Below are positions 3,650 to 61,624 of a stretch of 64,000 bases of DNA, in pieces. The notes beneath the pieces are model-generated. The model made no database searches. It was not told the DNA's origin and saw nothing but the letters and a program-made list of their open reading frames with translations. Source of the stretch: Paraglaciecola sp. T6c (GTDB lineage: Bacteria > Pseudomonadota > Gammaproteobacteria > Enterobacterales > Alteromonadaceae); the NCBI RefSeq assembly GCF_000014225.1, contig NC_008228.1:930001-994000 (forward strand), given 5' to 3'. The translations under genes were made by a program, and so were the position numbers. Position 1 is the stretch's first letter. Every line of letters begins with the position of its first letter.

Positions 3650-5149
3650 CTATTGGAGGTAGGACTGATGCGGTGCTAAGCGTGCGACTTCTGACTGTAT
3701 GGCGAGTTTCACGTTATTGAAGAACGGCTCAGCTTGCTGCGCATCGAACTGTTTGTCTGAAAAAGCGGAATAGTCCCCTAAGTAGCCTTGCCCCACCAAC
3801 ACTTGAAACCAACTTTGAAAAGGAAACAAACTACTTTCAGGTAAGTTGATGTAGCCAGTGCGGTTAAATTCGGCCAAGTAATGTTGCAATGTTTGCGGGA
3901 TCGGCATCGTCTTACAGTGTTGCCAGAATGGGGTGTCGGTACGTTTAGATACATGATAATGCGTGAGCAAAAAGTCTTTTATGCTTACAGCCTCATGATA
4001 AAACATGCGGTTAAAACGCTTGGCCTCGTGAGCTCTGTCTTGCCCAGAGATAAGTGCATCTTTTAGCTCGAGTGCGTATTTGTGAATAAGATGAATACTG
4101 GTCGACTCAAGAGGCTCAAGAAACCCGCTAGCAAGCCCGATGGCAATACTGTTGCGATGCCAAGGCGTAGTCAAACAGCCTGTTTTAAAATGAAGGATCT
4201 TAGGCTCGGTGATGAGTTGTTCACCTGCAAGTGCCTTCTTCAGTTCTTGTAATGCTTGCTCGTCAGTTAGAAATCGGCTAGAGAATACGTATCCGTTTCC
4301 TGTGCGATCACGCAGGGGAATTTCCCAGCGCCAGCCAGCGTTCATAGCGATTGATTTGGTATAGGCTGCAGCAGGCGTATCGCGTTTCGTCTGTACGGCG
4401 ATAGCAGCGTCACAAGGCAATTCATGGCTCCAATCGTTGAATTTACATCCGTAGTGCACCTTATTTAAACGTCCATACATACCGGAGCAATCGACAAAAT
4501 ACTCCCCAGAAACATTACGTCCATCGCGTAAACTCAAACTTGATATGTCTCCGTTGCGTTTGTTATTAACACGACTCACTGTGCCTTCAATATGTTCAAC
4601 CAAGTGTTCCTGTGCGTATTGCTTTAACAAGTCTGCAAGCTTGCTGGCATCAAATTGGTACGCATAAAATAGCAATGAAAGAGGGTAGAAGTGTTGTGGG
4701 TTAGCGCCTTTTGGAATGGCCAGCGGCGGATGAAACTTGCCCGCCTTTGCCGCCACTGCACTGGGGATATAACTACCGAGATCGGTTAGGTTAAGGGGGC
4801 CCGCGTATTTGAGCCAAGCCTGGGGGAATGAAAGTGCGTTGAATGGCGTACCAATATCTCCAAACGCATGCATGTATCGGTTACCTATTTCAGACCAATC
4901 TTCAAACTGAATACCGTACTTATATGTACCGTTAAGTCGCATTAAAAAACGGTGCTCGTCTAATTCTAAATATTTTAATAATAGGGTGAGTGGCGGGATG
5001 GAGGCTTCACCGACGCCGACACTTGGAATGTCAGGGCTTTCGACTAAGCGGATATGAAATCTATCGTTAGGTAAGCCTTTAGCGAGTATGGCCGCTGACA
5101 TCCAGCCTGCTGTGCCACCACCTAATATTGTTATCGTTGTTTTTTTCAT
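3650..5149 (-). CDS. Flavin-dependent (tryptophan-type) halogenase
   Basis: This 499-residue protein belongs to the PrnA-like halogenase family, which uses FADH2, oxygen and halide to make HOX. The FAD motif GGGTAGW is at residues 10-16. K77 in the context TYKYGI matches the catalytic lysine. The family box GWRWEIP is at 272-278, and E348-S349 in GFLEPLEST match the substrate-orienting Glu and chloride-contacting Ser. All key residues are therefore present. There is no signal peptide, so it should be cytoplasmic. It is the third gene of the receptor operon, an association seen widely in marine and freshwater proteobacteria whose purpose is unknown. The natural substrate cannot be deduced. Confidence 0.9.
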   Translation of the reverse strand: MKKTTITILGGGTAGWMSAAILAKGLPNDRFHIRLVESPDIPSVGVGEASIPPLTLLLKYLELDEHRFLMRLNGTYKYGIQFEDWSEIGNRYMHAFGDIGTPFNALSFPQAWLKYAGPLNLTDLGSYIPSAVAAKAGKFHPPLAIPKGANPQHFYPLSLLFYAYQFDASKLADLLKQYAQEHLVEHIEGTVSRVNNKRNGDISSLSLRDGRNVSGEYFVDCSGMYGRLNKVHYGCKFNDWSHELPCDAAIAVQTKRDTPAAAYTKSIAMNAGWRWEIPLRDRTGNGYVFSSRFLTDEQALQELKKALAGEQLITEPKILHFKTGCLTTPWHRNSIAIGLASGFLEPLESTSIHLIHKYALELKDALISGQDRAHEAKRFNRMFYHEAVSIKDFLLTHYHVSKRTDTPFWQHCKTMPIPQTLQHYLAEFNRTGYINLPESSLFPFQSWFQVLVGQGYLGDYSAFSDKQFDAQQAEPFFNNVKLAIQSEVARLAPHQSYLQ

Positions 5150-12762: not shown

Positions 12763-13677
12763 ATGAATACTTTATTTCACTCGCCACGTGTGGGTTATCA
12801 ACTCTGCCGGTTTGGAGCCGTCTGTTCTGTGTTGCTGTTAAGTGCATGTTCCCCTACGGATAATACGACTAAGCAGGCACCAGAAAGTCAATGGCGTTAC
12901 TTACTCGATAGCGAATTGTCTCAATGGAATGCTTGGATGGGTGTGCCTCATTCGTCGGTAAAAGGATTACCTGAAGGAACACACCAAGCTGACAACTTAA
13001 ACGTGAACGGCGACCCAAGTGATGCCATGGGGCTCAATGCCGATGTGAAAAGTGTGTTTTCCGTTAGCCAAGAGCAGCAACCCGTGTTGCACGTGAGCGG
13101 TGAAATTTATGGTGGTTTAACCAGCAAGTTAAACTTTGAAAATTACCACTTGAGCTTACAAGTGAAATGGGGGGATAAAAAATGGGCGCCTAGGCTTGAA
13201 GCCAAACGTGACAGTGGTCTGCTGTTTCACTGCCAAGGTGAGCATGGTGCATTTTGGAAAGTGTGGAAGGCATGCCAAGAGTTACAAATTCAAGAAAGTG
13301 ATTTTGGTGACTACATTCCCCTTGCTGGCCCAGGAGGGACAATTCGCTCGACTTATAAAGATGGTCAACAATTTTATGACCCAAACAGCCAAGAGCGGAA
13401 TCAGGTTGGGGGTTATAGTCATGCGTATTTAGAGCCAGATTATCAACATGGTAACTGGAATACGGTGGAGCTTTACGCGTTGGCCGACAGCGCTGTGTTT
13501 GTTGTTAACGGCGAGGTGGTCATGGTTGTGACGGACTCGATTAACGAGCAAGGGGAGCCATTAACCTCAGGGCAGCTACAGTTGCAATCTGAAGGCGCAG
13601 AGGTGTTTTTTCGAGATGTGAAAATACGTCCAATTCAGGCATTTCCTAATCATATCGTGCGCGAAGCACACTTATGA
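12763..13677 (+). CDS. DUF1080 (3-keto-disaccharide hydrolase fold) lipoprotein
   Basis: This 304-residue lipoprotein has its lipobox at LLSAC (C29). The rest is one concanavalin-like jelly-roll of the DUF1080 family, with YHLSLQVKWG, RDSGLLFHCQG and the closing strand VFFRDVKIRPI. Some members of this family have been reported to hydrolyse 3-keto-glycosides; others may only bind sugars. It begins 44 bases after GH43 and its stop overlaps the GH117 start by 4 bases (ATGA), so the two are translationally coupled. The active site cannot be judged by eye, so catalysis is not claimed. The nearby haem-protein operon makes an oxidised-sugar substrate worth considering. Confidence 0.78.
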   Translation: MNTLFHSPRVGYQLCRFGAVCSVLLLSACSPTDNTTKQAPESQWRYLLDSELSQWNAWMGVPHSSVKGLPEGTHQADNLNVNGDPSDAMGLNADVKSVFSVSQEQQPVLHVSGEIYGGLTSKLNFENYHLSLQVKWGDKKWAPRLEAKRDSGLLFHCQGEHGAFWKVWKACQELQIQESDFGDYIPLAGPGGTIRSTYKDGQQFYDPNSQERNQVGGYSHAYLEPDYQHGNWNTVELYALADSAVFVVNGEVVMVVTDSINEQGEPLTSGQLQLQSEGAEVFFRDVKIRPIQAFPNHIVREAHL

Positions 13678-14966
13678 AATACTGGCTAATCGGGGCGCTT
13701 TCTTTAAGCCTAACGGCCTGTAACAACACCACGATGGAGTCAGAGACCCGCGCAGCATCAACATCTGTGAGCGCGCCTAATAAAGCATATTCTCAAGCGG
13801 ATTATGCCTATTTGGCAATTAGTCAGCCTGACACAATGAGTGCGGCGTCTAAACGCGCTTTAGCGCGGAATTATCATAAAAATGAACAATGGTTCGGTGA
13901 GTTTAGACACGAAACCTTATTTGGTGACTTTGCTTTCGATCCCAATGTGAGCAGGCGCGATCCGTCTAAAGTACTTAAGGTGGATAACGTATTTTACACT
14001 TGGTATACCCGCACTACAGGGGAGGCCGTAGGGTTTGGCACAGGGGATCCTAACGCCAAAGTCTTTCCGTGGGATCAAGCTGAGATTTGGTATGCCACGT
14101 CAAAAGACGGATACCATTGGCAAGAAAAAGGTCGAGCACTGGGGACGGGAGACGTTGGTCAGTTTGATGATCGCTCCGTTTTCACACCAGAAGTGTTGGC
14201 TCACCAAGGAATGTTTTATCTCGTATATCAGGCCATTAAGGCACCTTATCTAAATCGTACTAAAAATACTGTGGCCATGGCGTATTCCTCTTCACCTGAT
14301 GGGCCATGGCGCAAACTTGATGCACCTATATTAACAGCATCAGACACTGGCGAGTGGGCAGGGACACAAGACAATCGCTTCTTAGTTAAATCCCAAGGAG
14401 ATTTTGACAGCCATAAAGTACATGACCCAACGTTACTGTTTTATCGTGATAAGTTTTACCTGTATTACAAAGGTGAGCGCATGGGAGAGCGTAAAACGGC
14501 TGGGGGCCGAGAAATTCGTTGGGGCGTGGCGATTGCTGATAACCCTCAAGGCCCGTATATCAAGTCTGCGTTTAATCCTATTACCCACAGTGGTCACGAG
14601 CTCTGCGTGTGGCAATACCAAGATGGAATTGCCATTGTCTCCTCCCATGACGGCCCAGAAAAGCAAACGATTCAATACGCCCCCGACGGTATTAATTTCG
14701 AAGTCATGTCTTACCTTCCATCGGTGCCTAGCGCGATAGGTTTAGTGGAGTCATTAGATAAGAATGCCTACCCAACGGCAGGCTTAGAATGGGGGCTATA
14801 CCATGAATATGTTATCCCGCCGGGGAAAACCTGGATGTCGGGCATTAATCACATAAAGCGTTTTAGCTTTAATGCACCAAACCGCGTTTCCATGCAAGGC
14901 GACTCAATAGGAAACACCCCGCAAAACAACTCTGGCGAATTTATCAATAAGCAGAGCGATCATTAG
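13674..14966 (+). CDS. GH117 alpha-1,3-neoagarooligosaccharide hydrolase-like lipoprotein
   Basis: This 430-residue lipoprotein (lipobox SLTAC, C16) is of the GH117 family, which removes 3,6-anhydro-L-galactose from the non-reducing end of neoagaro-oligosaccharides. The five-bladed propeller shows the conserved pieces SRRDPSKVLKV (D96), KVHDPTLLFY (D251) and SGHELCVWQ (H308, E309), matching the family's acidic residues and metal-site neighbourhood. The N-terminal helical region (about 40-80) fits the domain-swap segment of known dimers. Its ATG overlaps the DUF1080 stop. This is the clearest marker in the window for an agar/porphyran substrate. The C-terminus has a short extra tail (about 410-430) of low complexity. 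Confidence 0.9.
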   Translation: MKYWLIGALSLSLTACNNTTMESETRAASTSVSAPNKAYSQADYAYLAISQPDTMSAASKRALARNYHKNEQWFGEFRHETLFGDFAFDPNVSRRDPSKVLKVDNVFYTWYTRTTGEAVGFGTGDPNAKVFPWDQAEIWYATSKDGYHWQEKGRALGTGDVGQFDDRSVFTPEVLAHQGMFYLVYQAIKAPYLNRTKNTVAMAYSSSPDGPWRKLDAPILTASDTGEWAGTQDNRFLVKSQGDFDSHKVHDPTLLFYRDKFYLYYKGERMGERKTAGGREIRWGVAIADNPQGPYIKSAFNPITHSGHELCVWQYQDGIAIVSSHDGPEKQTIQYAPDGINFEVMSYLPSVPSAIGLVESLDKNAYPTAGLEWGLYHEYVIPPGKTWMSGINHIKRFSFNAPNRVSMQGDSIGNTPQNNSGEFINKQSDH

Positions 14967-15394: not shown

Positions 15395-16813
15395 TTAGAT
15401 TAACAAGTTCTTCATCACTTTGCCGTGCACATCGGTTAAACGAAAGCGTCTGCCTTGATACTTGTAAGTGAGCTTTTCATGCTCAACCCCCATTAGGTGC
15501 ATCAATGTGGCTTGAAAGTCATGCACATGCACGGGATCTTTGATGATGTTGTAGCCGAATTCGTCCGTTTCACCGTATATACCCGGCTTAATGCCGCCCC
15601 CTGCCATCCACATGGTAAAGCAGCCAGGATGATGGTCACGGCCATAATTGGTTTCTGTCAGCTTACCTTGAGAGTAATTCGTGCGGCCAAATTCGCCTCC
15701 CCAAACGACTAGGGTATCGTCTAGTAGTCCGCGTTGTTTCAAATCTGTCACCAGCGCTGCAGAAGCCTGATCGGTCTTTTCACACTGGGCTTTAATGCCG
15801 CCAGGTAGGTTATCGTGTTGATCCCAGCCCTGATGATAAAGCTGAGTAAATTTAACGTTGCGCTCAGCTAAGCGCCTAGCCAAAAGACAGTTAGCTGCGT
15901 AAGTGCCCGGTTTGCGTGAGTCAGGCCCATACATATCAAAAACCCAATCAGGCTCATCGCTGAAATCAGTGGCATCAGGTACTGACTTTTGCATGCGCTC
16001 AGCCATATCGTATTGCGCTGCCCGTGACATAATCTCTTCATCTTGCCACTGTTGATATTGTGCATCTTGCAGCTGTTTGAATTTATCCATTAGCTTCGAG
16101 CGGTTCTTCACGTCTAAGCCCGGCGGGTTGTTTAAATAAAGTACTGGGTCTGCTCCGCCTCTAAATTGAACACCTTGATGGATAGAGGGCAAAAAGCCAT
16201 TTCCCCACAGGCGCGAATATAAAGGCTGGCCGCCGGCATTGGTTGATACCATGACGATGAAAGGCGGTAAATTGGGGTTGTCGGAGCCTAGCGCATAGCT
16301 TAACCAAGCGCCTATGCTGGGGCGACCAGCGATAGGGAATCCTGTTTGTAAGAAGGTTATCGCCGGATCGTGGTTGATAGCATCTGTGTGCATTGAGCGC
16401 ACGATACACAAGTCATCAACAATTTTGGCCGTGTGGGGCAATAGCTCACTCACCCAAGCCCCAGATTCGCCATATTGCTTAAAGTCATACACTGAGCGAG
16501 CTAAGGGCAGCGAACTTTGCTGCGCACTCATGCCCGTTAGGACTTGATCGCCTCTAACTTCTGCCGGCAGTTGTTGACCATGGCGTTTGTCTAACGTGGG
16601 TTTGTAGTCAAAGGTTTCCAGTTGCGATGGCCCGCCGCTTTGAAACAAGTAGATAACCCGCTTGGCTTTGGCAGGTGTGTGCGGAGAGCCCAAAATACCA
16701 TTTAAGCCAGGGTTAAGGTCTCGTGCTTGAGCGAAATTAGGAATGGCGCTGGCCATCGCCCCAGCGGCTAAACCCTGCATCGTACCTTTTAAAAAATCTC
16801 GTCTGTTTGTCAT
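15395..16813 (-). CDS. DUF1501 protein (alkaline-phosphatase-like fold), Tat-exported
   Basis: This 472-residue protein has a twin-arginine signal (NRRDFLKG, then a hydrophobic stretch to about residue 30). The body is DUF1501, a family of the alkaline phosphatase/sulfatase clan of unknown reaction. Family pieces visible are FQSGGPSQLETFDYKP, NHDPAITFLQTG and VWGGEFGRTNYSQG. There is no formylglycine motif. It is last in a four-gene operon, 9 bases after the DUF1549/DUF1553 gene, and the two families are regular neighbours in Planctomycetes and Verrucomicrobia. A hydrolase acting on a sulfated or phosphated group in the periplasm is possible, but no activity is established. Confidence 0.85.
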   Translation of the reverse strand: MTNRRDFLKGTMQGLAAGAMASAIPNFAQARDLNPGLNGILGSPHTPAKAKRVIYLFQSGGPSQLETFDYKPTLDKRHGQQLPAEVRGDQVLTGMSAQQSSLPLARSVYDFKQYGESGAWVSELLPHTAKIVDDLCIVRSMHTDAINHDPAITFLQTGFPIAGRPSIGAWLSYALGSDNPNLPPFIVMVSTNAGGQPLYSRLWGNGFLPSIHQGVQFRGGADPVLYLNNPPGLDVKNRSKLMDKFKQLQDAQYQQWQDEEIMSRAAQYDMAERMQKSVPDATDFSDEPDWVFDMYGPDSRKPGTYAANCLLARRLAERNVKFTQLYHQGWDQHDNLPGGIKAQCEKTDQASAALVTDLKQRGLLDDTLVVWGGEFGRTNYSQGKLTETNYGRDHHPGCFTMWMAGGGIKPGIYGETDEFGYNIIKDPVHVHDFQATLMHLMGVEHEKLTYKYQGRRFRLTDVHGKVMKNLLI

Positions 16814-16822
16814 GTTCGGCTC

Positions 16823-19800
16823 CTAACGTTTAATGACGCTAGCGTCGTGGTTAATTAACATATTGGTCACTGTGCCCAATGCAGCCAGCTTAATTTCATT
16901 AAGCTCACTATTGGCAGGGGTTTCACCCACAGATAGAAATTCGGCTGCCTTGTCAGGTGTTTGGCTAAAGCTTTGCTCGATCTCGCTATACATTTCTAGG
17001 ATCAGAGCCTGCTCTTGTTCGCTTGGCATACGACTGGTCAGTAAACGATATACTTTCTTGAGTTGTTCTTCGGTATTTGCGGTGTCGCTTAACACGCTTT
17101 GTGCTAACACACGAGATGCCTCAACAATTTGCGGATCGTTTAACAGTGCCAGCGCTTGTAATGGGGTGCTGGTTGCTTGCCTAACCCCCACACTGTGCGC
17201 CCGGGACGGAGCATCAAAGGCGGTCATATTGGGTGGCGGAACGCTGCGCTTGTATATGGTGTACATGGAGCGGCGATACAAATCTTGCCCAGAGCCTTGC
17301 ACGTAATCCATGTTGTTCATTCGCCAAATACCATTAGGCTGATAAGGGTGTACGCTTTTCCCGCCCACCTGCTCGACTAATAAACCGCTACTGGCCAGTG
17401 CATTATCACGGATCATTTCAGCTGTTAAACGAGCACTTGGGCCGCGAGCCAGTAGCGTATTCTCTGGGTCTAGCTCTTTTAGCTCAGGGGAGCCCTTGGA
17501 TGATTGAGTGTAAGTCGATGAGTTGACCATCAACGCGATGAGCTGCTTAACGTTCCACCCAGATTCAATGAATTCCACTGCAAGCCAGTCGAGTAATTCT
17601 GGGTGTGACGGCAGCTTGCCTTGACTGCCAAAGTCCTCTGGTGTGGTCACCAAACCTTGGCCATAAATCATCTGCCAATAGCGGTTAACCACAACCCGAG
17701 ACACCAGTGGATTTTTAGCATCCGTTAGCCACTTGGCTAAGCCCAAACGATTTTTAGGTAAACTTTTATCAAACGTTAGGACCGTCTCAGGGACACCGGG
17801 TTCTACTGGCTCCCCGTGCTCTGCATAGCTGCCACGATTCAGTACGTAGGCTTGCTTCGGACTAGGACCTTCTTTCATGACCATAATTTCTTGAATCTGC
17901 TCAGCTAAACCACTGTGCTCGGCCCGTAATTCGGATAGGTGAGCAATGTCTTGCTGAAATGCACTGTTGTACCTGTGATTGTATAGGGCCAATAAATCTT
18001 GCTGGGCAAAGTCAGATTCACGGTTTTGAGTGCCAAACGCGTTAGCGACTTCAACATGTGTCAAGTCAGCGCTGTAAACTCGCAGGTTATCAACTAGGGT
18101 GTCAGGTGTGCCTCGACTACGCCATCTGGCCCCAATTTTTAAGCCCATTTCTTTGAGCACGCCTTCATGTGTGTGTTTGAAATCTTTGTATAGATTGTCT
18201 TTCTCAACCTGCATTTTTAGTGGTTGGCCGTCGATATAAAAATGTACACCAGCGGCTTTTGAAGAGCCGTCGTAGGTCAGAGTGATATTTTGCCACCGAT
18301 TGCGTGTTACCTCTTCGGTTGAGGTTAATGTAATGGCGTTAAATGGGTAAGTATGGGCAAAACGCACCAGCCAGCGTCCGTCCTGTATTGAAACATCAAA
18401 GCCTTTAAAATTATAAAGAATACCGGCTTTGTTGTAATGAAACAGGACCCCTTCTTCTAACGAGTCAGGCACTTTGGTATCTAAGCTAATGCTAAAGCGT
18501 TTCGCGCGCTCGAAGCCGTTTACGGTCGGAAAGTAAAGAGGATCGTCGCCATTTAGGACGATTGCTTCTCGGCCATCGTCTTTTATATGCACCATCGCAT
18601 CGCCCACTTTCTTTTTCGGGTCAGAGCCAAAGATAACCTTCCCGGGGGCATCTTTGTTGATCTGGTTGCTGATGTTGTCGTTACTATCAGAGGAAGACAA
18701 AGGAAAGTAGGCCTGCAGGGTTTGGTTAATGTCTCGGGCGTCAGAGGATATATTACTGTTTACCCACTGTTTGAAGGCGTTGTTGTCGACGCTGTGGCGA
18801 GAGTCCATCTGCTGGGTTAGGGCATTCATTTGTGTCGTGATGCGTTCAAGCTGCGCTTGTTGCGTGTCAGTAGGCAATAGCAATGTGGGGACAGGCATAT
18901 CGTTGGCATCGTAGGATATTTGCCCTGACTCTTCGATATTGTTAAAAAATGCTGTCGTGGCGTAATACTCTTTGGCAGATATAGGGTCGTATTTATGGTC
19001 GTGACATTGGGCGCAGTGCATGGTCAAACCCAGTAAGCCTGTGCCTACGGTTTGCACCCGATCTTTCACGTACTCCACTCTGAATTCTTCGTTAACGATC
19101 CCGCCCTCGCCATTTTGTGCATGTATACGGTTGAAGGCCGTGGCGAGCACTTGCTCTTTTGTTGGGTCAGGTAGCAAGTCGCCGGCAAGCTGCCAGGTAA
19201 CAAATTCATCGAATGGCATGTTTTGGTTAAATGCTTGAATGACCCAATCACGATAGGGAGACATGTCTCGGTAAAAGTCTGTGCTGTATCCATGGGTATC
19301 AGCGTAGCGCGCAACATCTAGCCACTCTGTTGCTAAGCGTTCACCAAATGCAGGGGTGGCAAGTAACCGCTTTACCACTTGCTGATAGGCATCAGGGTTG
19401 GTGTCAGCAAGAAACGCATCGATTTCCTCTAAAGTAGGGGGCAGGCCAGTAAGATCGAAGGTGACTCGGCGTATCAGTGTTTCTTTGTCAGCACGAGGAC
19501 TGACCGTTAAGCCTTTATCCTCGATGGCTTTCAGTATGAAATTATCCACTGGGTTTGCCGCCCAGTCTGAGTTGGCGGGTGTCGGCAAGGTTGTTTTTTC
19601 TGGGGCAATAAAAGACCAGTGCTTTTTGTATTTTGCACCTTGATCTATCCATTTTCCGATGAGCGCTTTTTCCCGGGGAGACAGCGATAGATTTGACTCA
19701 GGTGGTGGCATAACCATGTTTTCATCATCAGACATGATACGACGATAGGCAGCACTGTTTTTGGCTGAACCTGCGACTAAGGCGGCCAGTCCGTCATCGG

Positions 19801-20047
19801 TCTTGTGGCTGGTGGCACTGTCAAAATTAGACAGGCTTAAGCCCGCTTTGGCGTTGGCTACATCCGGGCCGTGACATAAATAGCATGTATCTGACAGGAT
19901 CGGCTTAACATGGTAGTTAAAATCGACCACATCAGGCAGTGGCTCTTTAAATGCCACATCGCTTGCATCGTCGTTGCAACCCGCGACGAGCATTGCCATG
20001 GGCAAACCAACAATAACAGTAGTGATAAGGGGGAAATGAATTTTCAT
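16823..20047 (-). CDS. DUF1549/DUF1553 lipoprotein with two CxxCH haem motifs and a LamG-like domain
   Basis: This 1074-residue protein has a lipobox LVAGC (C24). A planctomycete-type cytochrome domain (PSCyt1) with the haem motif CYLCH lies at 55-59. DUF1549 (about 145-375) contains a second motif, CAQCH (345-349), in the usual context CHDHKYDP. A LamG/concanavalin-like insert spans about 490-690 (FSISLDTKVPDS, GVHFYIDGQ). The DUF1553 domain (about 775-1030) contains NRYWQMIYGQGLV and STPLQALALLND. It would be a periplasm-facing, membrane-anchored c-type haem protein. The start is 8 bases after the NHL gene and the stop is 9 bases before DUF1501. Function is unknown; electron transfer from a sugar-linked oxidation is one hypothesis. 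Confidence 0.88.
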   Translation of the reverse strand: MKIHFPLITTVIVGLPMAMLVAGCNDDASDVAFKEPLPDVVDFNYHVKPILSDTCYLCHGPDVANAKAGLSLSNFDSATSHKTDDGLAALVAGSAKNSAAYRRIMSDDENMVMPPPESNLSLSPREKALIGKWIDQGAKYKKHWSFIAPEKTTLPTPANSDWAANPVDNFILKAIEDKGLTVSPRADKETLIRRVTFDLTGLPPTLEEIDAFLADTNPDAYQQVVKRLLATPAFGERLATEWLDVARYADTHGYSTDFYRDMSPYRDWVIQAFNQNMPFDEFVTWQLAGDLLPDPTKEQVLATAFNRIHAQNGEGGIVNEEFRVEYVKDRVQTVGTGLLGLTMHCAQCHDHKYDPISAKEYYATTAFFNNIEESGQISYDANDMPVPTLLLPTDTQQAQLERITTQMNALTQQMDSRHSVDNNAFKQWVNSNISSDARDINQTLQAYFPLSSSDSNDNISNQINKDAPGKVIFGSDPKKKVGDAMVHIKDDGREAIVLNGDDPLYFPTVNGFERAKRFSISLDTKVPDSLEEGVLFHYNKAGILYNFKGFDVSIQDGRWLVRFAHTYPFNAITLTSTEEVTRNRWQNITLTYDGSSKAAGVHFYIDGQPLKMQVEKDNLYKDFKHTHEGVLKEMGLKIGARWRSRGTPDTLVDNLRVYSADLTHVEVANAFGTQNRESDFAQQDLLALYNHRYNSAFQQDIAHLSELRAEHSGLAEQIQEIMVMKEGPSPKQAYVLNRGSYAEHGEPVEPGVPETVLTFDKSLPKNRLGLAKWLTDAKNPLVSRVVVNRYWQMIYGQGLVTTPEDFGSQGKLPSHPELLDWLAVEFIESGWNVKQLIALMVNSSTYTQSSKGSPELKELDPENTLLARGPSARLTAEMIRDNALASSGLLVEQVGGKSVHPYQPNGIWRMNNMDYVQGSGQDLYRRSMYTIYKRSVPPPNMTAFDAPSRAHSVGVRQATSTPLQALALLNDPQIVEASRVLAQSVLSDTANTEEQLKKVYRLLTSRMPSEQEQALILEMYSEIEQSFSQTPDKAAEFLSVGETPANSELNEIKLAALGTVTNMLINHDASVIKR

Positions 20048-20055
20048 GGCTTGAC

Positions 20056-21300
20056 CTACACGCGTTCTAATTTAATGGGGTACATCTGATTGGCATTCCA
20101 CTGGCCCACATACAGATTTTCGTCATCATCTACACACACAGCATGGCAGTGATTAAAAACCTGATAGTTGGTTTGCATAGGCTGTAGCTGAGCATTGACA
20201 TACTCAGGTGCTAAACCGCCGGGATTAGAGACCACACGGTTGTTTTTATCGAGTATGGTGATAAAACCGGAGTTAGGAGCCATCTTTGCGTCTATGTGCG
20301 ACCAGCAAACAGGGGCGTAAAAATGCTCACCTTTGAACACAGGACCGCCTACATAGGCCCCTGGTAAATGAATATCACCGAGTAATTTTCCGTCCATTGA
20401 ATACTTTTTGATAGCTTGTTCGCCCCTTGAGCTGACAAGTAAGTGGTGATTATTTGGGTCACGTGTGTCCACTCCAATACCATGGGTATTGACCAAGTTC
20501 AGTGATTTATCGGCGTTTTTCGTGCCTCCCCAGTGGCGCAGATATTTACCATTGCTATCGTAGTGAATAACAAAATCTGATCCGTAGCCGTCGGTGACGT
20601 ACAAATCTCCGTTAGGGGCGACGGTGAGATCCGTCGGTTGATAGCGCATGTCTGGGGTATAAATACCTATTGTGACGGGGTGGCCTATGGTGTAAACCAG
20701 TTTTCCGTCTATCGTTAGCTTGGCGATAAAGCCACTTTGTGGATACCATTTATTTTTCCATTGATCGTCAGGGCGGTTGCGATCAAGCACCCATCCGCAA
20801 TCAACGATATAGATAAAGTCTTCACCATTTTCATGGGAAATTTTAACGGAATGCGCCCCGGGGTATTGTGTGCCCCAAGCGTCCAGCAATTTGCCGTCTT
20901 TGTTGTACACCACGAAGTTATTTACGTCGCTATCGGTGACCATGATGATTCGCCCTTTAGAGTCGATGGCCAGACCGTGACTGTTTTCAACGGGCACTTT
21001 GTGGGGATCTAATCTGCCCCAGTTGTAGTCCACTTTATATTGAAAGTCGCCGTGGCCAACGATGCTACCGTGAGGTGAACGTCCCGCTTTGGGCAACTGC
21101 TTTTTCTCGGGTTCATGAGCATGGGTAGAAGACGACATGCCGGCTAATAGCAAAGCGCTACCGAGTGTTGCGCCACCTTGCAAGAACTGGCGCTTACTTG
21201 TATCTACCTTGGGGGCGTCAAGCGCTGAGTGACAGGCCGAATCAAGGGCTGAATGAGAGCTCGCTGTTTCAGTGGTGTTCAGTTTCGTATTTTGCATCAT
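20056..21300 (-). CDS. NHL-repeat six-bladed beta-propeller protein, exported
   Basis: This 414-residue protein is built of NHL-type propeller repeats (SHGLAIDSKGRIIMVTD, PTDLTVAPNGDLYVTDGYG, NTHGIGVDTRD, CHAVCVDDDENLYVGQ) over residues about 90-410. The N-terminus has a Tat-like signal with KR instead of RR (TSKRQFLQGG) followed by a hydrophobic stretch, so the export route is uncertain. Ahead of it lies a short internal duplication (SALDSACHSALDAP). The start overlaps the stop of the upstream membrane cytochrome gene by one base (TAATG), and the DUF1549 gene follows after 8 bases. Relatives include peptidyl-amidating lyase-like propellers and plain scaffold proteins. I would call it a periplasmic propeller of unknown role. 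Confidence 0.85.
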   Translation of the reverse strand: MMQNTKLNTTETASSHSALDSACHSALDAPKVDTSKRQFLQGGATLGSALLLAGMSSSTHAHEPEKKQLPKAGRSPHGSIVGHGDFQYKVDYNWGRLDPHKVPVENSHGLAIDSKGRIIMVTDSDVNNFVVYNKDGKLLDAWGTQYPGAHSVKISHENGEDFIYIVDCGWVLDRNRPDDQWKNKWYPQSGFIAKLTIDGKLVYTIGHPVTIGIYTPDMRYQPTDLTVAPNGDLYVTDGYGSDFVIHYDSNGKYLRHWGGTKNADKSLNLVNTHGIGVDTRDPNNHHLLVSSRGEQAIKKYSMDGKLLGDIHLPGAYVGGPVFKGEHFYAPVCWSHIDAKMAPNSGFITILDKNNRVVSNPGGLAPEYVNAQLQPMQTNYQVFNHCHAVCVDDDENLYVGQWNANQMYPIKLERV

Positions 21301-22697
21301 TATTCCACTTTCGATCCGTGTTTATTGTTTTGGGCAATGTCGGCGTCGTTGCTTGCGACCGTGCTGTAATACATCTTGGTGTCACCGTTTAGGGAGTGAC
21401 GAGCAAATGCCTCCGCATCGACCTTGCTGGCTGACAAGTACACTTGTTGCAATGCGGCAAATTCATTGAGCATTGGCAGTACATCGTTATCTACTTCGGT
21501 GGCGTAAAGATTGAGGTAATACAAATTAGCGGCTTGTTTCAGAGGAGCCAGAGCGCGGGTGGTTACCGTTGAGTGCTCTAAACGCAATTTTTGCAAATTA
21601 GGCAATTGGGCAATCGTTTCCATGTGGCTTTTGGTCACGTCTTTCTTAGCAATATTCAAATACAGCACATGGGATTTCACCTCAGTTAGTAGGGCTAACG
21701 TGTCGGCAGTAAGTGGCAATGGCGAAATAGACATGTCGAGGTCTAAGTAGTTGGATTGCTGGGCAATTTGCTTAACCACAAAGCCAGCATCGACTAACTG
21801 TTGGGCTTGCTCGTCGCTTATCGGCTCAATGTCCGCTAAAGAGGTTGGGTTAATGGCCAGTAGGTCAGTGAGTAAGGCTTTTTGCTCTTTGTTTTGCACA
21901 AAATCAGTCACAGGGCCTTGATGAGGAATACCTGTGGCTATCCACCACTTAATCACGTCAATTTCCTCTGCGCTAAGGGGCTTCTTGCCTTCTGCTGGCA
22001 TATATCCTTTCTCGTCATGATCGAGGGTTACGCGCTGATAAAGTTCACTGAGTTCAGGCTTACCTGCGACGACGGTATTACCACTTTTTCCGCCTTTTTT
22101 CAGGCTTTCAAATGAGGCAAGGCTGAGGCCGCCTTTTTGTTTGCTGTCGTTGTGGCAACTGGCACAGCGTTTTTCAAACATAGGGGAAATGACATCTAAA
22201 TATACATCTGCTTGAGCAAGGCTGGTGATTGGGGCTCTGGGCGCTTTATGTGGTTCAAAACCTGCTATTTGGCGAATCGGGTTCGGTGCGTACTCGACTA
22301 AATAGGTTTCACCGTGGGTCATATTGGCGCCGTAATGGCCAGTAGAAAATAACAGCCCCAACACAATGCTCGATAAGGTATAAATCACTATCCCTGGGCT
22401 GTTACGTTTAAATGCCCACCAGCAAATCCAAGCGGTAATCGCCACAGATATGCCAAAACTACGGTGTATAAAAATGGCCTCTGCACTGTAGCCATCGGCT
22501 TGAGACAACATCCAACCCAGTACGCAAGCAGCCACAGCTGAAACGGCACCCCAGAACCAAACTATGTTGAGCAGTGCACTTCGTGCTTGGCCTTTAAAAC
22601 GAACGACCATCTCTACCAGGGCTGCCAACATGAGAATACCGATAGGCAAGTGCAACACCAGTACATGAAAGCGCGCAAAGAATTGAAATAAATCCAT
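21300..22697 (-). CDS. DUF2231-type membrane protein with cytochrome (PSCyt1) and leucine-rich C-terminus
   Basis: This is 465 residues from the ATG at 22697. A TTG 11 codons upstream (22730) is possible, but the ATG directly precedes the first membrane segment. Four or five hydrophobic helices lie in residues 1-150 (LHLPIGILMLAALVEMVV, a DUF2231-like start). A PSCyt1-type domain carries the haem motif CASCH (178-182) and the PAEGKKPLSAEEIDVIKWWI helix. About 140 residues of leucine-rich-repeat-like sequence end it. It heads the four-gene operon 22697 to 15395 and is divergent from the AraC regulator. It is a plausible inner-membrane electron entry or anchor for the other haem protein. Confidence 0.82.
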   Translation of the reverse strand: MDLFQFFARFHVLVLHLPIGILMLAALVEMVVRFKGQARSALLNIVWFWGAVSAVAACVLGWMLSQADGYSAEAIFIHRSFGISVAITAWICWWAFKRNSPGIVIYTLSSIVLGLLFSTGHYGANMTHGETYLVEYAPNPIRQIAGFEPHKAPRAPITSLAQADVYLDVISPMFEKRCASCHNDSKQKGGLSLASFESLKKGGKSGNTVVAGKPELSELYQRVTLDHDEKGYMPAEGKKPLSAEEIDVIKWWIATGIPHQGPVTDFVQNKEQKALLTDLLAINPTSLADIEPISDEQAQQLVDAGFVVKQIAQQSNYLDLDMSISPLPLTADTLALLTEVKSHVLYLNIAKKDVTKSHMETIAQLPNLQKLRLEHSTVTTRALAPLKQAANLYYLNLYATEVDNDVLPMLNEFAALQQVYLSASKVDAEAFARHSLNGDTKMYYSTVASNDADIAQNNKHGSKVE

Positions 22698-22783
22698 AGT
22701 TATCTTTAAGTGTATTTTCGATGTAATCAATGTTACGCAGATGTTAAAGGTGTCACCATTGATAATCTTGATGTATATTTGTA

Positions 22784-22799
22784 TGAAATTGATATTTCA
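22784..22799. promoter_or_regulatory. Small palindrome in the AraC / cytochrome-operon divergent promoter
   Basis: TGAAAT and ATTTCA flank the tetramer TGAT. It lies among several GATGT words (about 22732, 22771, 22811) in the 169-base divergent region. It may be a binding site of the adjacent AraC protein; the shared ATTTACATRTG motif is absent here. Confidence 0.35.
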
Positions 22800-22866: not shown

Positions 22867-23748
22867 ATGTTAATTGAACAATTCGAAACTGGCTCGGGTG
22901 GGTTTGTGTGGCAAAATCTGCAGCCTGATGCGCTATTCAGCAAGGTGCATTTTCATGTTTATGCCGCCTTTGATATGCAAATAGGGGCAGAGTGGAACGG
23001 TAGCCAGTTCGTTAATCACTACAATCGAATTTATTATGTCGAGTCTGGGGTAGCTGAATTACATTTTAGCGATCGTGTGCTCATCATGGAGCCGGGGTAC
23101 TTATACCTCATTCCGCCTTATCAATTACTGTCTCATTCAGCTCAAGGAAAGCTAGGCTTTAAGTGGGTCCACTTTCAGGCGAGTCTTGATGAAGGGTTGG
23201 ATTTATTTATGCTATACGGTAAGCCGTGTAGAGTGAAATGCACCAATCCGGATGCAACAAGCACCTTGTTTGATGAGCTAATTTCAGCAATGCAGACGAT
23301 GCGCCCAAGCGCGGTGCTAGAGCGTCAGAGCTTACTGTTAAACCTACTGCGGCCATTTATGCATATTTTTGATGATGTGCCCCAGCAGCGTAAACATTTG
23401 TTGCACCCAGCGCTTGTTTCATCCCTTAGCGTCATCAATCAACACGTCGCAAACCCGCCAAGTTTGATCGCACTTGCCGAGGCGGCAAACATGTCGCCTG
23501 AGCATTTTTCACGAAAATTCAAAGCCGCGTTTAATGTTTCACCCAAACGCTATATGGTGCACAAGCAAATCGCTTTAGCGAAACAGCGTTTGTTATTGGG
23601 GGCTGACAGTATTGATAGAGTGGCTGAAAGTTGCGGGTTTTGTGATATTTTTCATTTTTCTCGCACGTTCAAAAAGGAAACGGGCGTGACGCCCAGCGCG
23701 TTTCGCAAAGAGTACACGATCCGCGCTTTTCCCCCGAAGCCTAGTTAG
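22867..23748 (+). CDS. AraC-family transcriptional regulator
   Basis: This 293-residue regulator has an N-terminal cupin-like sensing domain (about 25-140, with YYVESGVAELHF and MEPGYLYLIPPY) and a C-terminal AraC double helix-turn-helix (about 190-285). The HTH region shows LAEAANMSPEHFSRKFKAAF and VAESCGFCDIFHFSRTFKKETG. AraC proteins of this type bind a sugar and activate nearby catabolic genes. It is transcribed away from the four-gene haem-protein operon with a 169-base shared promoter region, so that operon is the likeliest target. The effector is unknown. Confidence 0.92.
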   Translation: MLIEQFETGSGGFVWQNLQPDALFSKVHFHVYAAFDMQIGAEWNGSQFVNHYNRIYYVESGVAELHFSDRVLIMEPGYLYLIPPYQLLSHSAQGKLGFKWVHFQASLDEGLDLFMLYGKPCRVKCTNPDATSTLFDELISAMQTMRPSAVLERQSLLLNLLRPFMHIFDDVPQQRKHLLHPALVSSLSVINQHVANPPSLIALAEAANMSPEHFSRKFKAAFNVSPKRYMVHKQIALAKQRLLLGADSIDRVAESCGFCDIFHFSRTFKKETGVTPSAFRKEYTIRAFPPKPS

Positions 23749-36777: not shown

Positions 36778-38661
36778 ATGCACCTAAAACGCGTTGCTTC
36801 TTTTCTTTGTATAGCCGTGTCGCTAGCACTAACGGCGTGTGTCAGGCAGTCGGGTGAGAACGATTCATTTGTTAGCGCAGCGGCAACTGAATCGACTACG
36901 GCATCATCTGAACCATCTAAACCGAACAATACACATACCAATGTGGTACTGATTTTAATTGATGATTTAAGTCACTATGGTGTGACGGCTTATGGTGCTA
37001 ACCGATTACACAGTTATGATGGTGAATTTAGTGGTGCTGAGTTTGCTACTCCTAGTATTGATGCGCTGGCACAGCAAGGGATAAGAGTAGACCGTGCATT
37101 TGCCTATCCTATCTGTGAAAACACGCGAATAGCCCTAATGAGTGGCAAGCGAAACGATAGAAATTACCTGCAGCCTAAATCTCAACACAGTTCCGATTTA
37201 ACCTTTGGCGATGCGTTTAAAAAATCCGGCTATACCACTGGCTTGTTTGGTAAATGGAAGCAAACCAGAGGCACAGTAGAGGTACCGGGTAAAGAGTACA
37301 TAAGTCAGTTTGGTTGGGACGATTACGCCGCTTTTGACGTGGTCACAGAAGGCCAGCGCTATATTAATCCTAACTTGGTGATAAACGGTGAGGTGCATAA
37401 TTATAATGGGCGAAAAGATCTCGACCCAGCGACTGGCAGGCGTTGGTATGGACCAGATATCGTTAATCGCCACGCGTTACAATTTATAGAGCAAAACAAA
37501 GACAAACCCTTCTTTTTATATTATCCCATGATTTTGGTACATGACGATCATAAACCTACCCCTGATACGCAACCCGAATCAATATTCGATGGGTTTCCAG
37601 AAAATGCCGATTACAACAACACCCGAGGGGACGACCGCCAATACTTTCCTGACATGATCCGCTACATGGATAAGTTGATTGGCCAGGTGGTGGAAAAGTT
37701 ACGTCAGCAAGCATTGCTTGATAACACCTTGATTGTTGTCATGGGCGACAACGGCACTAAAGAAAGTTTCGGACACGTATTACCTGACGGAAGCATTTAT
37801 CCCGGCAGGAAAGGAGGCAACGCAGACAACGGGTTACATGTGCCTTTGGTCTTACATTATCCCGGGGAAATACCAAGTGGCAAGCATGCTGATTATCGCA
37901 CGTACGATGGGTTGGTTAACTTGACCGATATTTACCCAACAATTGCTCAAGCGGCGGGTATCGAATTGCCTGACGCTCAGCAGATAGACGGCATCAGTTT
38001 CTGGCCTCAAGCAACGGGTCAGAAAACCAAAGAACACCGAGAATATATTTACACTTGGTATATCGGCAACGAAACATACAAAGACGAAGACAAAGTCTTA
38101 CGTTACGCATTCAATAAACAGTTTAAACGCTACGCACCAGACAAGGATTTCCCTGATGGGCGATTCTTTGACCTGCGCACTGACCCACTTGAACGCCAAG
38201 GAAACAAGGTCGTTGAAAAAGCCTGGCAATTAAAGCGTTACAGTGGGTTAGACATCAGCCAATTAACCCCGAAGCAAGCTGCTGTTTATCGATATCTAGG
38301 TGCCATTCTAGACAAGCACAAACTTACCCCAGTGACCAAGCTAACCATTGACGCGTCCCAGACAATTTTGTCACCGGGAGAGAGTGCGAACCTAGATATC
38401 AGCGCTTTCCCCAAACATGCACAGCGCCAAGGTGTTATTTGGGAGTCTAGCAATCCTAATGTGGTCAGTGTCGATAAATTTGGACAAATAAGCGCTCTCA
38501 AAGTGGGGCAGGCCACCATTCGTGCTTTCTCATGGGAAGATGCGGAGCCATTAGCTGCCAATAAAGCTAAGACCTATCAACGTACTGGGCTCTCAACATC
38601 TGTGGTGGTGAAGGTGACGTCATTGAAAATGAGCCAACAAACCAATGGAGCAAGTCAATGA
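36778..38661 (+). CDS. S1-family sulfatase-like lipoprotein with non-canonical CENTR motif and Big2 domain
   Basis: This 627-residue protein has its lipobox at LALTAC (C21). The sulfatase fold is clear: LIDDLSHYG (metal acids D62, D63), GLFGKWKQ and VVMGDNGTK. The modification site reads CENTR (C113), so the residue two after Cys is Asn where the S1 rule asks for Pro or Ala. In place of GKWH it has GKWK. A Big_2-type domain (about 520-610; NPNVVSVDKFGQISALKVG) is fused at the C-terminus. Its stop overlaps the AraC start by 4 bases (ATGA). It could be a variant sulfatase with atypical FGE recognition, a Cys-based hydrolase of other specificity, or an inactive binder. Confidence 0.82.
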   Translation: MHLKRVASFLCIAVSLALTACVRQSGENDSFVSAAATESTTASSEPSKPNNTHTNVVLILIDDLSHYGVTAYGANRLHSYDGEFSGAEFATPSIDALAQQGIRVDRAFAYPICENTRIALMSGKRNDRNYLQPKSQHSSDLTFGDAFKKSGYTTGLFGKWKQTRGTVEVPGKEYISQFGWDDYAAFDVVTEGQRYINPNLVINGEVHNYNGRKDLDPATGRRWYGPDIVNRHALQFIEQNKDKPFFLYYPMILVHDDHKPTPDTQPESIFDGFPENADYNNTRGDDRQYFPDMIRYMDKLIGQVVEKLRQQALLDNTLIVVMGDNGTKESFGHVLPDGSIYPGRKGGNADNGLHVPLVLHYPGEIPSGKHADYRTYDGLVNLTDIYPTIAQAAGIELPDAQQIDGISFWPQATGQKTKEHREYIYTWYIGNETYKDEDKVLRYAFNKQFKRYAPDKDFPDGRFFDLRTDPLERQGNKVVEKAWQLKRYSGLDISQLTPKQAAVYRYLGAILDKHKLTPVTKLTIDASQTILSPGESANLDISAFPKHAQRQGVIWESSNPNVVSVDKFGQISALKVGQATIRAFSWEDAEPLAANKAKTYQRTGLSTSVVVKVTSLKMSQQTNGASQ

Positions 38662-60435: not shown

Positions 60436-61624
<1,189 letters not shown>

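Follow-up and report, generated by a model that had tools for sequence, protein, structure and literature searches.

Proteins built from PSCyt1, PSCyt2 and PSD1 domains have been described from Planctomycetes and Verrucomicrobia. The genome of the planctomycete Rhodopirellula baltica carries the PSD1 and PSCyt2 domains 41 times each, according to excerpts of PMC2754498. Passages of He et al. (2017; PMC5615132) portray the PSCyt proteins as periplasmic or cytoplasmic, often encoded near sulfatases and of unknown function, with PSCyt2 genes adjoining one family of unknown genes in Verrucomicrobia and Planctomycetes. In the literature that we searched (most subscription papers lie outside it), no assigned reaction was found for PSD1 or PSCyt2, and no paper was found on the reaction of DUF1501, on NHL proteins with PhyH in agar loci or on the four-gene set studied here. 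This set lies at positions 15395 to 22697 of a 64,000-nucleotide stretch of Paraglaciecola sp. T6c (the window; NC_008228.1, positions 930,001 to 994,000). It has the PSCyt1/PSCyt2/PSD1 make-up, an insert resembling a carbohydrate-binding module and nearby sulfatases in common with the sets in the passages of He et al., but it comprises four genes, including an NHL propeller and a membrane cytochrome, and is found in Gammaproteobacteria. The cassette is genuine and conserved, its parts belong to known families without a characterised function, and most likely it serves to process algal sugars by oxidation in the periplasm.

Other systems resemble parts of the cassette. In PAM (peptidylglycine alpha-hydroxylating monooxygenase/amidating lyase), an oxidising partner (PHM) is followed by a propeller (PAL), and the NHL protein of the cassette matches that propeller in one long stretch; however, the oxidising partner of the cassette is unrelated, its propeller has four His where PAL has what we take to be three metal-binding His, and no peptide substrate is implied. 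The LacABC lactose 3-dehydrogenase with its DUF1080 protein, as given in excerpts of PMC9007349, performs a periplasmic, membrane-linked sugar oxidation such as we propose for the cassette, which sometimes has a DUF1080 neighbour, whereas the cassette lacks a GMC or Gluconate_2-dh3 subunit (36 window open reading frames, ORFs, scanned). The P450 system for 6-O-methyl-galactose (excerpts of PMC10033563) likewise oxidises a red-algal sugar, but its likely equivalent in this genome lies apart from the cassette, at 2.80 Mb, and comes with redox partners of its own. A further comparison is the NHL-PhyH pair of genomes with a GH117-like gene (loci L186, L190 and others), whose NHL protein is 58% identical to that of the window and has the same four His, but lacks a signal peptide (by eye) and has a 2-oxoglutarate dioxygenase in place of the cytochromes.

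The first-pass annotation, made from the sequence alone, had described four tightly packed genes with a divergent AraC gene, and this was borne out by coordinates, Pfam matches and intergenic distances of 9 bp, 8 bp and -1 bp (an overlap of 1 bp). All four genes lie on the minus strand. The promoter-proximal one (21300..22697) encodes a membrane protein with a PSCyt1 haem c domain (Pfam, 6.4e-14) and a tail resembling leucine-rich repeats (LRRs); its ORF extends to a TTG at 22730, and relatives begin at the ATG at 22697. Its membrane part had been labelled DUF2231-like, which holds as a weak likeness but stays below the Pfam gathering score (17 bits against 26.4; E 0.0065). The NHL propeller (20056..21300; Pfam NHL 9.8e-06, a weak match) follows, then the PSD1 protein (16823..20047) with PSCyt1 (5.1e-15), PSCyt2/DUF1549 (1.1e-88), LamG-like (Laminin_G_3, 2.1e-08) and PSD1/DUF1553 (3.6e-99) domains, which judged from its N-terminus by eye would be a lipoprotein. 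The last gene (15395..16813) encodes a DUF1501 protein (2.7e-154) with a twin-arginine N-terminus. PSCyt2 and PSD1 domains with a haem c motif stand beside DUF1501, the composition of the PSCyt1/PSD1-DUF1501 core of PVC bacteria. A motif scan confirmed the proposed two CxxCH motifs of the PSD1 protein (CYLCH and CAQCH) and the CASCH of the membrane protein, giving three haem motifs in all. The AraC-type regulator (22867..23748, plus strand) matched HTH_AraC, HTH_18 and AraC_binding.

Alignment of the cassette proteins revealed sets of invariant residues. In DUF1501, R4, R5, S63, S140, H148, E287, E317, D331, H333, D348, E374, H394 and D432 were identical in 33 of 33 rows, all of which keep the twin-arginine start, and residue 66 was E or D throughout. 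The second haem motif of PSD1 takes the form CxxCHxHxxD in 32 of 32 rows and the first CxxCH is present in 30 of 32, while R767, W773, N788, W791, Y846, R873, E877, D881, R934, Q964 and N970 were invariant in 30 rows. For the NHL protein we aligned 45 rows (27 from 25 cassettes, Moraxella and Persicobacter, and 18 further relatives), and H108, H150, H273, H386, K194, Y234, D237, Y239 and R292 were identical in all of them. An eight-row NHL profile aligned with PAL (3fvz, 26-315) in one stretch covering 66-343 of its 351 positions, and also with 5wm0; a larger profile covered the PAL C-terminal half only (171-349), and TRIM-type NHL proteins outscored PAL, in several pieces. Compared by motif with what we take to be the catalytic residues of PAL (a three-His metal site, Tyr654, Arg533 and Arg706), three His, Y239 and R292 match, and His108 is extra. 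Carotenoid oxygenases, with their four-His iron centres, offer a parallel.

Among 196 relatives (own genome included), PSD1 occurs in ten genomes of one family, at 25 places, and all four genes stand together at 22 of these, which indicates a set beyond chance. In wider samples, the 369 genomes of the class included three with PSD1 (one match weak) and the 299 of the phylum included one; both counts contain the genome of the window itself. The three incomplete sets are G069 at 996 kb, G069:C2 and a second set in G104; L090 was counted as complete although a 547 aa ORF, transposase-like by eye, splits its PSD1 from its DUF1501. The first-pass annotation had proposed to look for the same gene order in other genomes; the set recurs there in three gene orders and with differing glycan neighbours. 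Subtype A has the order cytochrome-NHL-PSD1-DUF1501 (10 of 22 places, 13 with three named records), subtype B the order PSD1-DUF1501-cytochrome-NHL (4 of 22) and subtype C the order NHL-PSD1-DUF1501-cytochrome followed by a b561-type gene (8 of 22); a Catenovulum plasmid shows a fourth, PSD1-DUF1501-NHL-cytochrome. Among named genome records, identity to the window's NHL protein was 99% in Alteromonas sp. MMG017, 88% in Paraglaciecola chathamensis S18K6 and 78% in Agaribacter marinus. The DUF1501 family is present in 91 of the 196 relatives and splits by score, with 26 places at 385-530 bits and the other listed ones at or below 154 bits. Of the high-scoring places, 25 are PSD1 places and one lies at a contig end (G021), so that PSD1 in these genomes is not seen without a cassette-type DUF1501. 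Across 26 cassettes, pairwise divergences of the four proteins were correlated (r 0.80-0.96, a level that none of 2000 permutations reached, with shared ancestry left in), which shows joint travel of the genes; common ancestry alone could yield such values.

The cytochromes of subtypes A and B carry an N-terminal membrane part in which four His are identical in all 20 rows that have it. Subtype C cytochromes have no such part, and in 8 of 8 cases a gene of 215-226 aa is adjacent instead. The one Pfam-tested of these is a cytochrome b561 (PF01292, 4.7e-23), the other seven are alike by eye, and a like gene at the incomplete set G069:C2 is PF01292 as well; this family does not occur in the window's own subtype A cassette, where the membrane part is DUF2231-like. 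Replacement of the membrane part by a b561-type gene suggests a connection to the membrane electron chain; of the observations made here, this exchange of one membrane module for another with b-type haem argues most strongly that the cassette is tied to the inner membrane.

Outside the PSD1 places, a profile search of the 196 relatives detected another 19 NHL genes with strong scores and four with weak ones. Of the strong group, 18 lack a signal peptide (by eye), whereas L202 begins with a signal-like stretch and clusters with subtype C. These signal-less NHLs were found in 18 of 26 genomes with a GH117-like gene and in none of 170 without one (GH, glycoside hydrolase), with the GH117-like gene within 25 kb in 11 of 18 cases and agarase (PF17992), TonB receptor or halogenase-family genes often near. 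A PhyH 2-oxoglutarate dioxygenase gene lies within 3.5 kb of 15 of the 18 (three-sequence hidden Markov model, HMM; Pfam PhyH checked for two), for example at L186:9005-10915, which is the own genome at 2.377 Mb, and at L190:9769-11691, next to an NHL with the four His. With the same HMM, PhyH was detected at none of the fetched cassette loci. In the NHL tree, the 17 signal-less rows that are intact cluster together (100/100), next to the subtype A cassette NHLs L043, L088 and L091 (96/93). Two plasmids from outside the family add a further partner. On that of Moraxella osloensis (L078:4390-8948), the genes for a glycyl-radical enzyme and its activator are immediately followed by an NHL relative; on that of Persicobacter, an NHL relative is 3 kb away from such an enzyme and a PhyH gene. 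Judged by gene neighbourhood, one propeller family was thus found with three unrelated C-H activating partners. As separate observations, the NHL gene at L189:9890-11017 (G002) is broken by a stop while its PhyH and GH117-like neighbours look intact; Tn3 transposases flank the glycyl-radical enzyme/NHL set on both sides on the Moraxella plasmid p4; and similar NHL matches occur on two other Moraxella plasmids and one Acinetobacter towneri plasmid.

Since a close, signal-less NHL is paired with PhyH in the same bacterial family, and since the propeller family occurs with three unrelated C-H activating partners, we read the cassette as supplying the oxidation step ahead of the propeller: it would be a haem-based counterpart to PhyH in the periplasm, acting on an algal sugar that the PAL-like propeller then processes. 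We favour this account tentatively, at a little below even likelihood. PSD1, with its two haem c motifs, and DUF1501 would form an enzyme that oxidises a sugar, or an oligosaccharide, derived from algal polysaccharide. The haems would be joined to the quinone pool through the PSCyt1 protein together with its membrane part (DUF2231-like in the window, cytochrome b561-type in subtype C). Next, the exported propeller, with a predicted PAL-like fold and a four-His, putatively metal-binding centre, would process the oxidised product, by analogy with PAL, which splits a hydroxylated intermediate in peptide amidation; on a sugar it could remove or open an ether-type group such as an O-methyl group or the 3,6-anhydro bridge of agar. 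The cassette as a whole would be the haem-based, periplasmic substitute for the PhyH partner of the signal-less NHL. A more far-reaching version is that PSD1-DUF1501 represents a new class of haem-dependent carbohydrate oxidase, wired by c- and b-type cytochromes to the membrane and acting with a four-His propeller lyase to cut or unmask algal sugars in the periplasm. In evolution it would be exchangeable for 2-oxoglutarate dioxygenases and glycyl-radical enzymes in the role of the oxidising enzyme that serves the propeller. We regard this version as doubtful; if true, the same core would explain many PSD1/DUF1501 pairs of Planctomycetes and Verrucomicrobia. A PAL-like propeller beside unrelated oxidising enzymes would give long-unexplained genes a first testable role, and a compact four-gene gammaproteobacterial version, which has a regulator to itself, sits in a defined polysaccharide setting and probably has a PhyH-using counterpart, makes an old question experimentally tractable.

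Several observations weigh against the PhyH-counterpart account. The position of PAL Arg533 seems to be lost in the cassette NHL, where the RGTH stretch of L100 that resembles it is absent; as the fourth His is also extra, PAL chemistry serves as an analogy. Only 8 of the 15 PhyH-NHL pairs are within 15 bp of each other on one strand, no PhyH is in view at L188, L195 and L198 (3 of 18), and the Persicobacter NHL stands immediately after an SDR oxidoreductase, not after the radical enzyme. At L089 and L090 the NHLs cluster with subtype C and their DUF1501 does not, a conflict indicating that parts have been exchanged. PSD1 is absent from 17 of the 26 genomes with a GH117-like gene, which makes the cassette an accessory. 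Among 79 IMG/VR DUF1501 loci (6.8-17.4 kb long), PSD1 was found in 53, NHL in one (weak) and the membrane cytochrome in none, so that PSD1 with DUF1501 must have some role independent of these two proteins. Moreover, no measured activity was found for any cassette member in the literature searched, no solved relative of PSD1 was detected except for its PSCyt1 domain and a chance-level LamG match, and AlphaFold2 models of DUF1501 and PSD1 (alignments of the window and three loci) were of low confidence (pLDDT, predicted local distance difference test, 28.6 and 33.5).

Pfam scanning of 36 of the 38 window ORFs longer than 150 aa identified GH86 beta-porphyranase domains, GH16, GH2, GH29, GH43 and sulfatases, so the galactan island of the first-pass annotation is real, and the bacterium is probably a consumer of red-algal sugars. 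A further gene at 13674-14966, which we take to be GH117-like, gave a sub-cut-off GH32N match only. Glycan genes lie within ~20 kb of 19 of the 25 PSD1 places, only DUF1080- or ThuA-type genes are present at three, and none is in view at three (the count draws on neighbours that matched window proteins and on 40 neighbour proteins that were scanned, a part of all neighbours). The operon is therefore not one that mostly occurs without glycan genes in its relatives. Neighbours include GH117-like, GH2, agarase (PF17992), GH29, alginate lyase and sulfatase genes in subtype A, sulfatases, agarase (PF17992) and GH43 in subtype B, GH115, GH98 and GH43 in Catenovulum, and GH78, GH106, GH88, GH86-like, GH16-like and sulfatase genes in subtype C. 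GH117-like genes were present in 9 of 10 PSD1 genomes and 17 of 186 others (Fisher test, 2.9e-8, kinship ignored). Of the earlier proposal of a periplasmic oxidative or desulfating step in galactan use, the periplasmic, redox-type accessory role in algal glycan use is supported, while galactan specificity and formylglycine desulfation are not; a galactan-only role was rejected, given the cassettes beside GH78, GH106, GH88 and GH115/GH98 and the GH117-like genomes without PSD1.

A different oxidation would make the cassette a flavin-free counterpart of LacABC: a ring hydroxyl of a periplasmic oligosaccharide would be oxidised at C3 of the glycoside, the quinone pool would take up the electrons, and the 3-keto product would be split by a DUF1080 protein. 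We consider this unlikely, though worth keeping in view. LacABC and DUF1080 are a described pair (excerpts of PMC9007349), no GMC, Gluconate_2-dh3 or Gfo/Idh/MocA match was obtained in the 36 scanned window ORFs, and Gfo/Idh/MocA, UxuA, AP_endonuc_2 or DUF7133-cytochrome genes lie near some cassettes. The window encodes a DUF1080 (3-keto-disaccharide hydrolase family) protein at 12763..13677 on the plus strand (PF06439, 2.2e-21), a possible functional partner of the cassette. The first-pass annotation placed it just upstream, but in transcriptional terms it is convergent with the 3' end of the operon and outside it, with the GH117-like gene in between. Across the ten genomes, DUF1080 lies within 15 kb of 7 of the 25 PSD1 places, and 9 of 68 copies are near one against 1.5 expected if copies were uniform (76 matches minus eight rows, namely five second matches inside an ORF already counted and three below cut-off; one of these three, G069:C2:105729, is 2.5 kb from an incomplete cassette). 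The suggested DUF1080 link is thus partial, the other 18 places having no DUF1080 within 15 kb; clustering of glycan genes makes the enrichment partly expected, and the NHL-PhyH pairing is left unexplained. Elsewhere in the genome, at 3.27 Mb (G000:C1:3269947-3271242), another DUF1080 gene has a Gluconate_2-dh3 neighbour, the only PF13618 site of the genome; in terms of gene content this pair is likely a LacABC-type 3-keto glycoside locus. Methylated algal sugars might also be O-demethylated oxidatively in the periplasm, with release of formaldehyde; this would be a special case of the PhyH-counterpart account and seems rather improbable. The PAL-like propeller occurs beside C-H oxidising partners, and the Catenovulum cassette adjoins GH115/GH98 genes, GH115 being linked to methyl-glucuronate. 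Porphyran contains 6-O-methyl-galactose (excerpts of PMC10033563), but the rhamnosidase and GH88 surroundings of subtype C do not suggest methyl ethers, and the genome already has a P450 demethylase-like cluster at 2.80 Mb that resembles a described set. This cluster (L102:7539-12801) encodes a P450, a 2Fe-2S ferredoxin, a ferredoxin reductase and a zinc alcohol dehydrogenase and resembles the 6-O-methyl-galactose demethylase set. Its presence weakens the idea that the cassette is the cell's only 6-O-methyl-galactose demethylase.

Desulfation by DUF1501 as a hydrolase of the alkaline-phosphatase clan, with the other proteins accessory, appears improbable. Membership of DUF1501 in that clan, which we assume, would fit, as would a weak profile match to an S1_8A sulfatase (E 0.04), the invariant acidic and His residues and the frequent sulfatases beside cassettes. 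However, DUF1501 has no C/S-x-P/A-x-R motif, which three of the four window sulfatases possess, dedicated sulfatases are present, and the three haem motifs and the membrane cytochrome would have no explanation; a place for DUF1501 within the S1 (formylglycine) sulfatase family was rejected on the missing motif. There is a similarly slim chance that the cassette is a complex for sensing, binding or stress respiration with no catalysis on glycans. LRR tails, LamG-like inserts and propellers are often binding domains, and three of the 25 places have no glycan gene in view, whereas the invariant polar residues of PSD1, DUF1501 and NHL look like active sites, and the glycan genes in view at 19 of the 25 places and the NHL-PhyH pairs speak for a role in catalysis.

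With respect to ancestry, PSD1 and DUF1501 most commonly occur as a two-gene core, of which the four-gene set is a special version. A tree of DUF1501 made by a quick method grouped subtype A (13 rows, support 98) and subtype C (8 rows, support 100), and placed Haliscomenobacter (Bacteroidota) and an IMG/VR row among the B-type rows, with three Singulisphaera rows outside. Haliscomenobacter has three of the four genes, with no NHL in view. Direct transfer from Planctomycetes, which the first-pass annotation had put up for testing, was not borne out in this quick tree of few rows, in which Haliscomenobacter and IMG/VR contigs are the nearest sampled outsiders and Singulisphaera is further away.

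The divergent promoter contains an operator-like block (22758..22792, minus strand) recognised in a promoter alignment, with two repeats ~21 bp apart (by eye). Of nine divergent promoters in the alignment, seven share this block of ~35 bp (three of the seven are near-identical), L083 has part of it, and in L080 it is not clear. The window contains a single site; a genome search that allowed up to 3 mismatches likewise gave a single match, as did the reversed control, and weaker AraC sites may therefore exist. At 9 of 13 subtype A cassettes, that of the window included, a relative of the AraC gene is the divergent neighbour, and a larger AraC-type regulator adjoins 4 of 8 subtype C cassettes (one Pfam-tested). 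L084 and L086 have a gene of 1374-1376 aa upstream, which in L084 is a hybrid two-component regulator with an AraC-type end (Pfam).

Further genes near the cassettes include DUF7133-cytochrome c proteins at L040:9620-13237, where DUF7133 is fused to DUF1080, and at L043:14721-17135; Gfo/Idh/MocA and Nramp genes adjoin the fusion of L040. In the window, a sulfatase with a Big_2 domain (36778-38661, plus strand) has CENTR where the other three sulfatases show CxPxR, and is maybe not activated in the usual way. A gene of the tryptophan-halogenase family (3650-5149, minus strand) lies near a TonB receptor and recurs at several related loci, and an IS110-family transposase gene (60436-61392, minus strand) stands immediately after a GH86 porphyranase gene.

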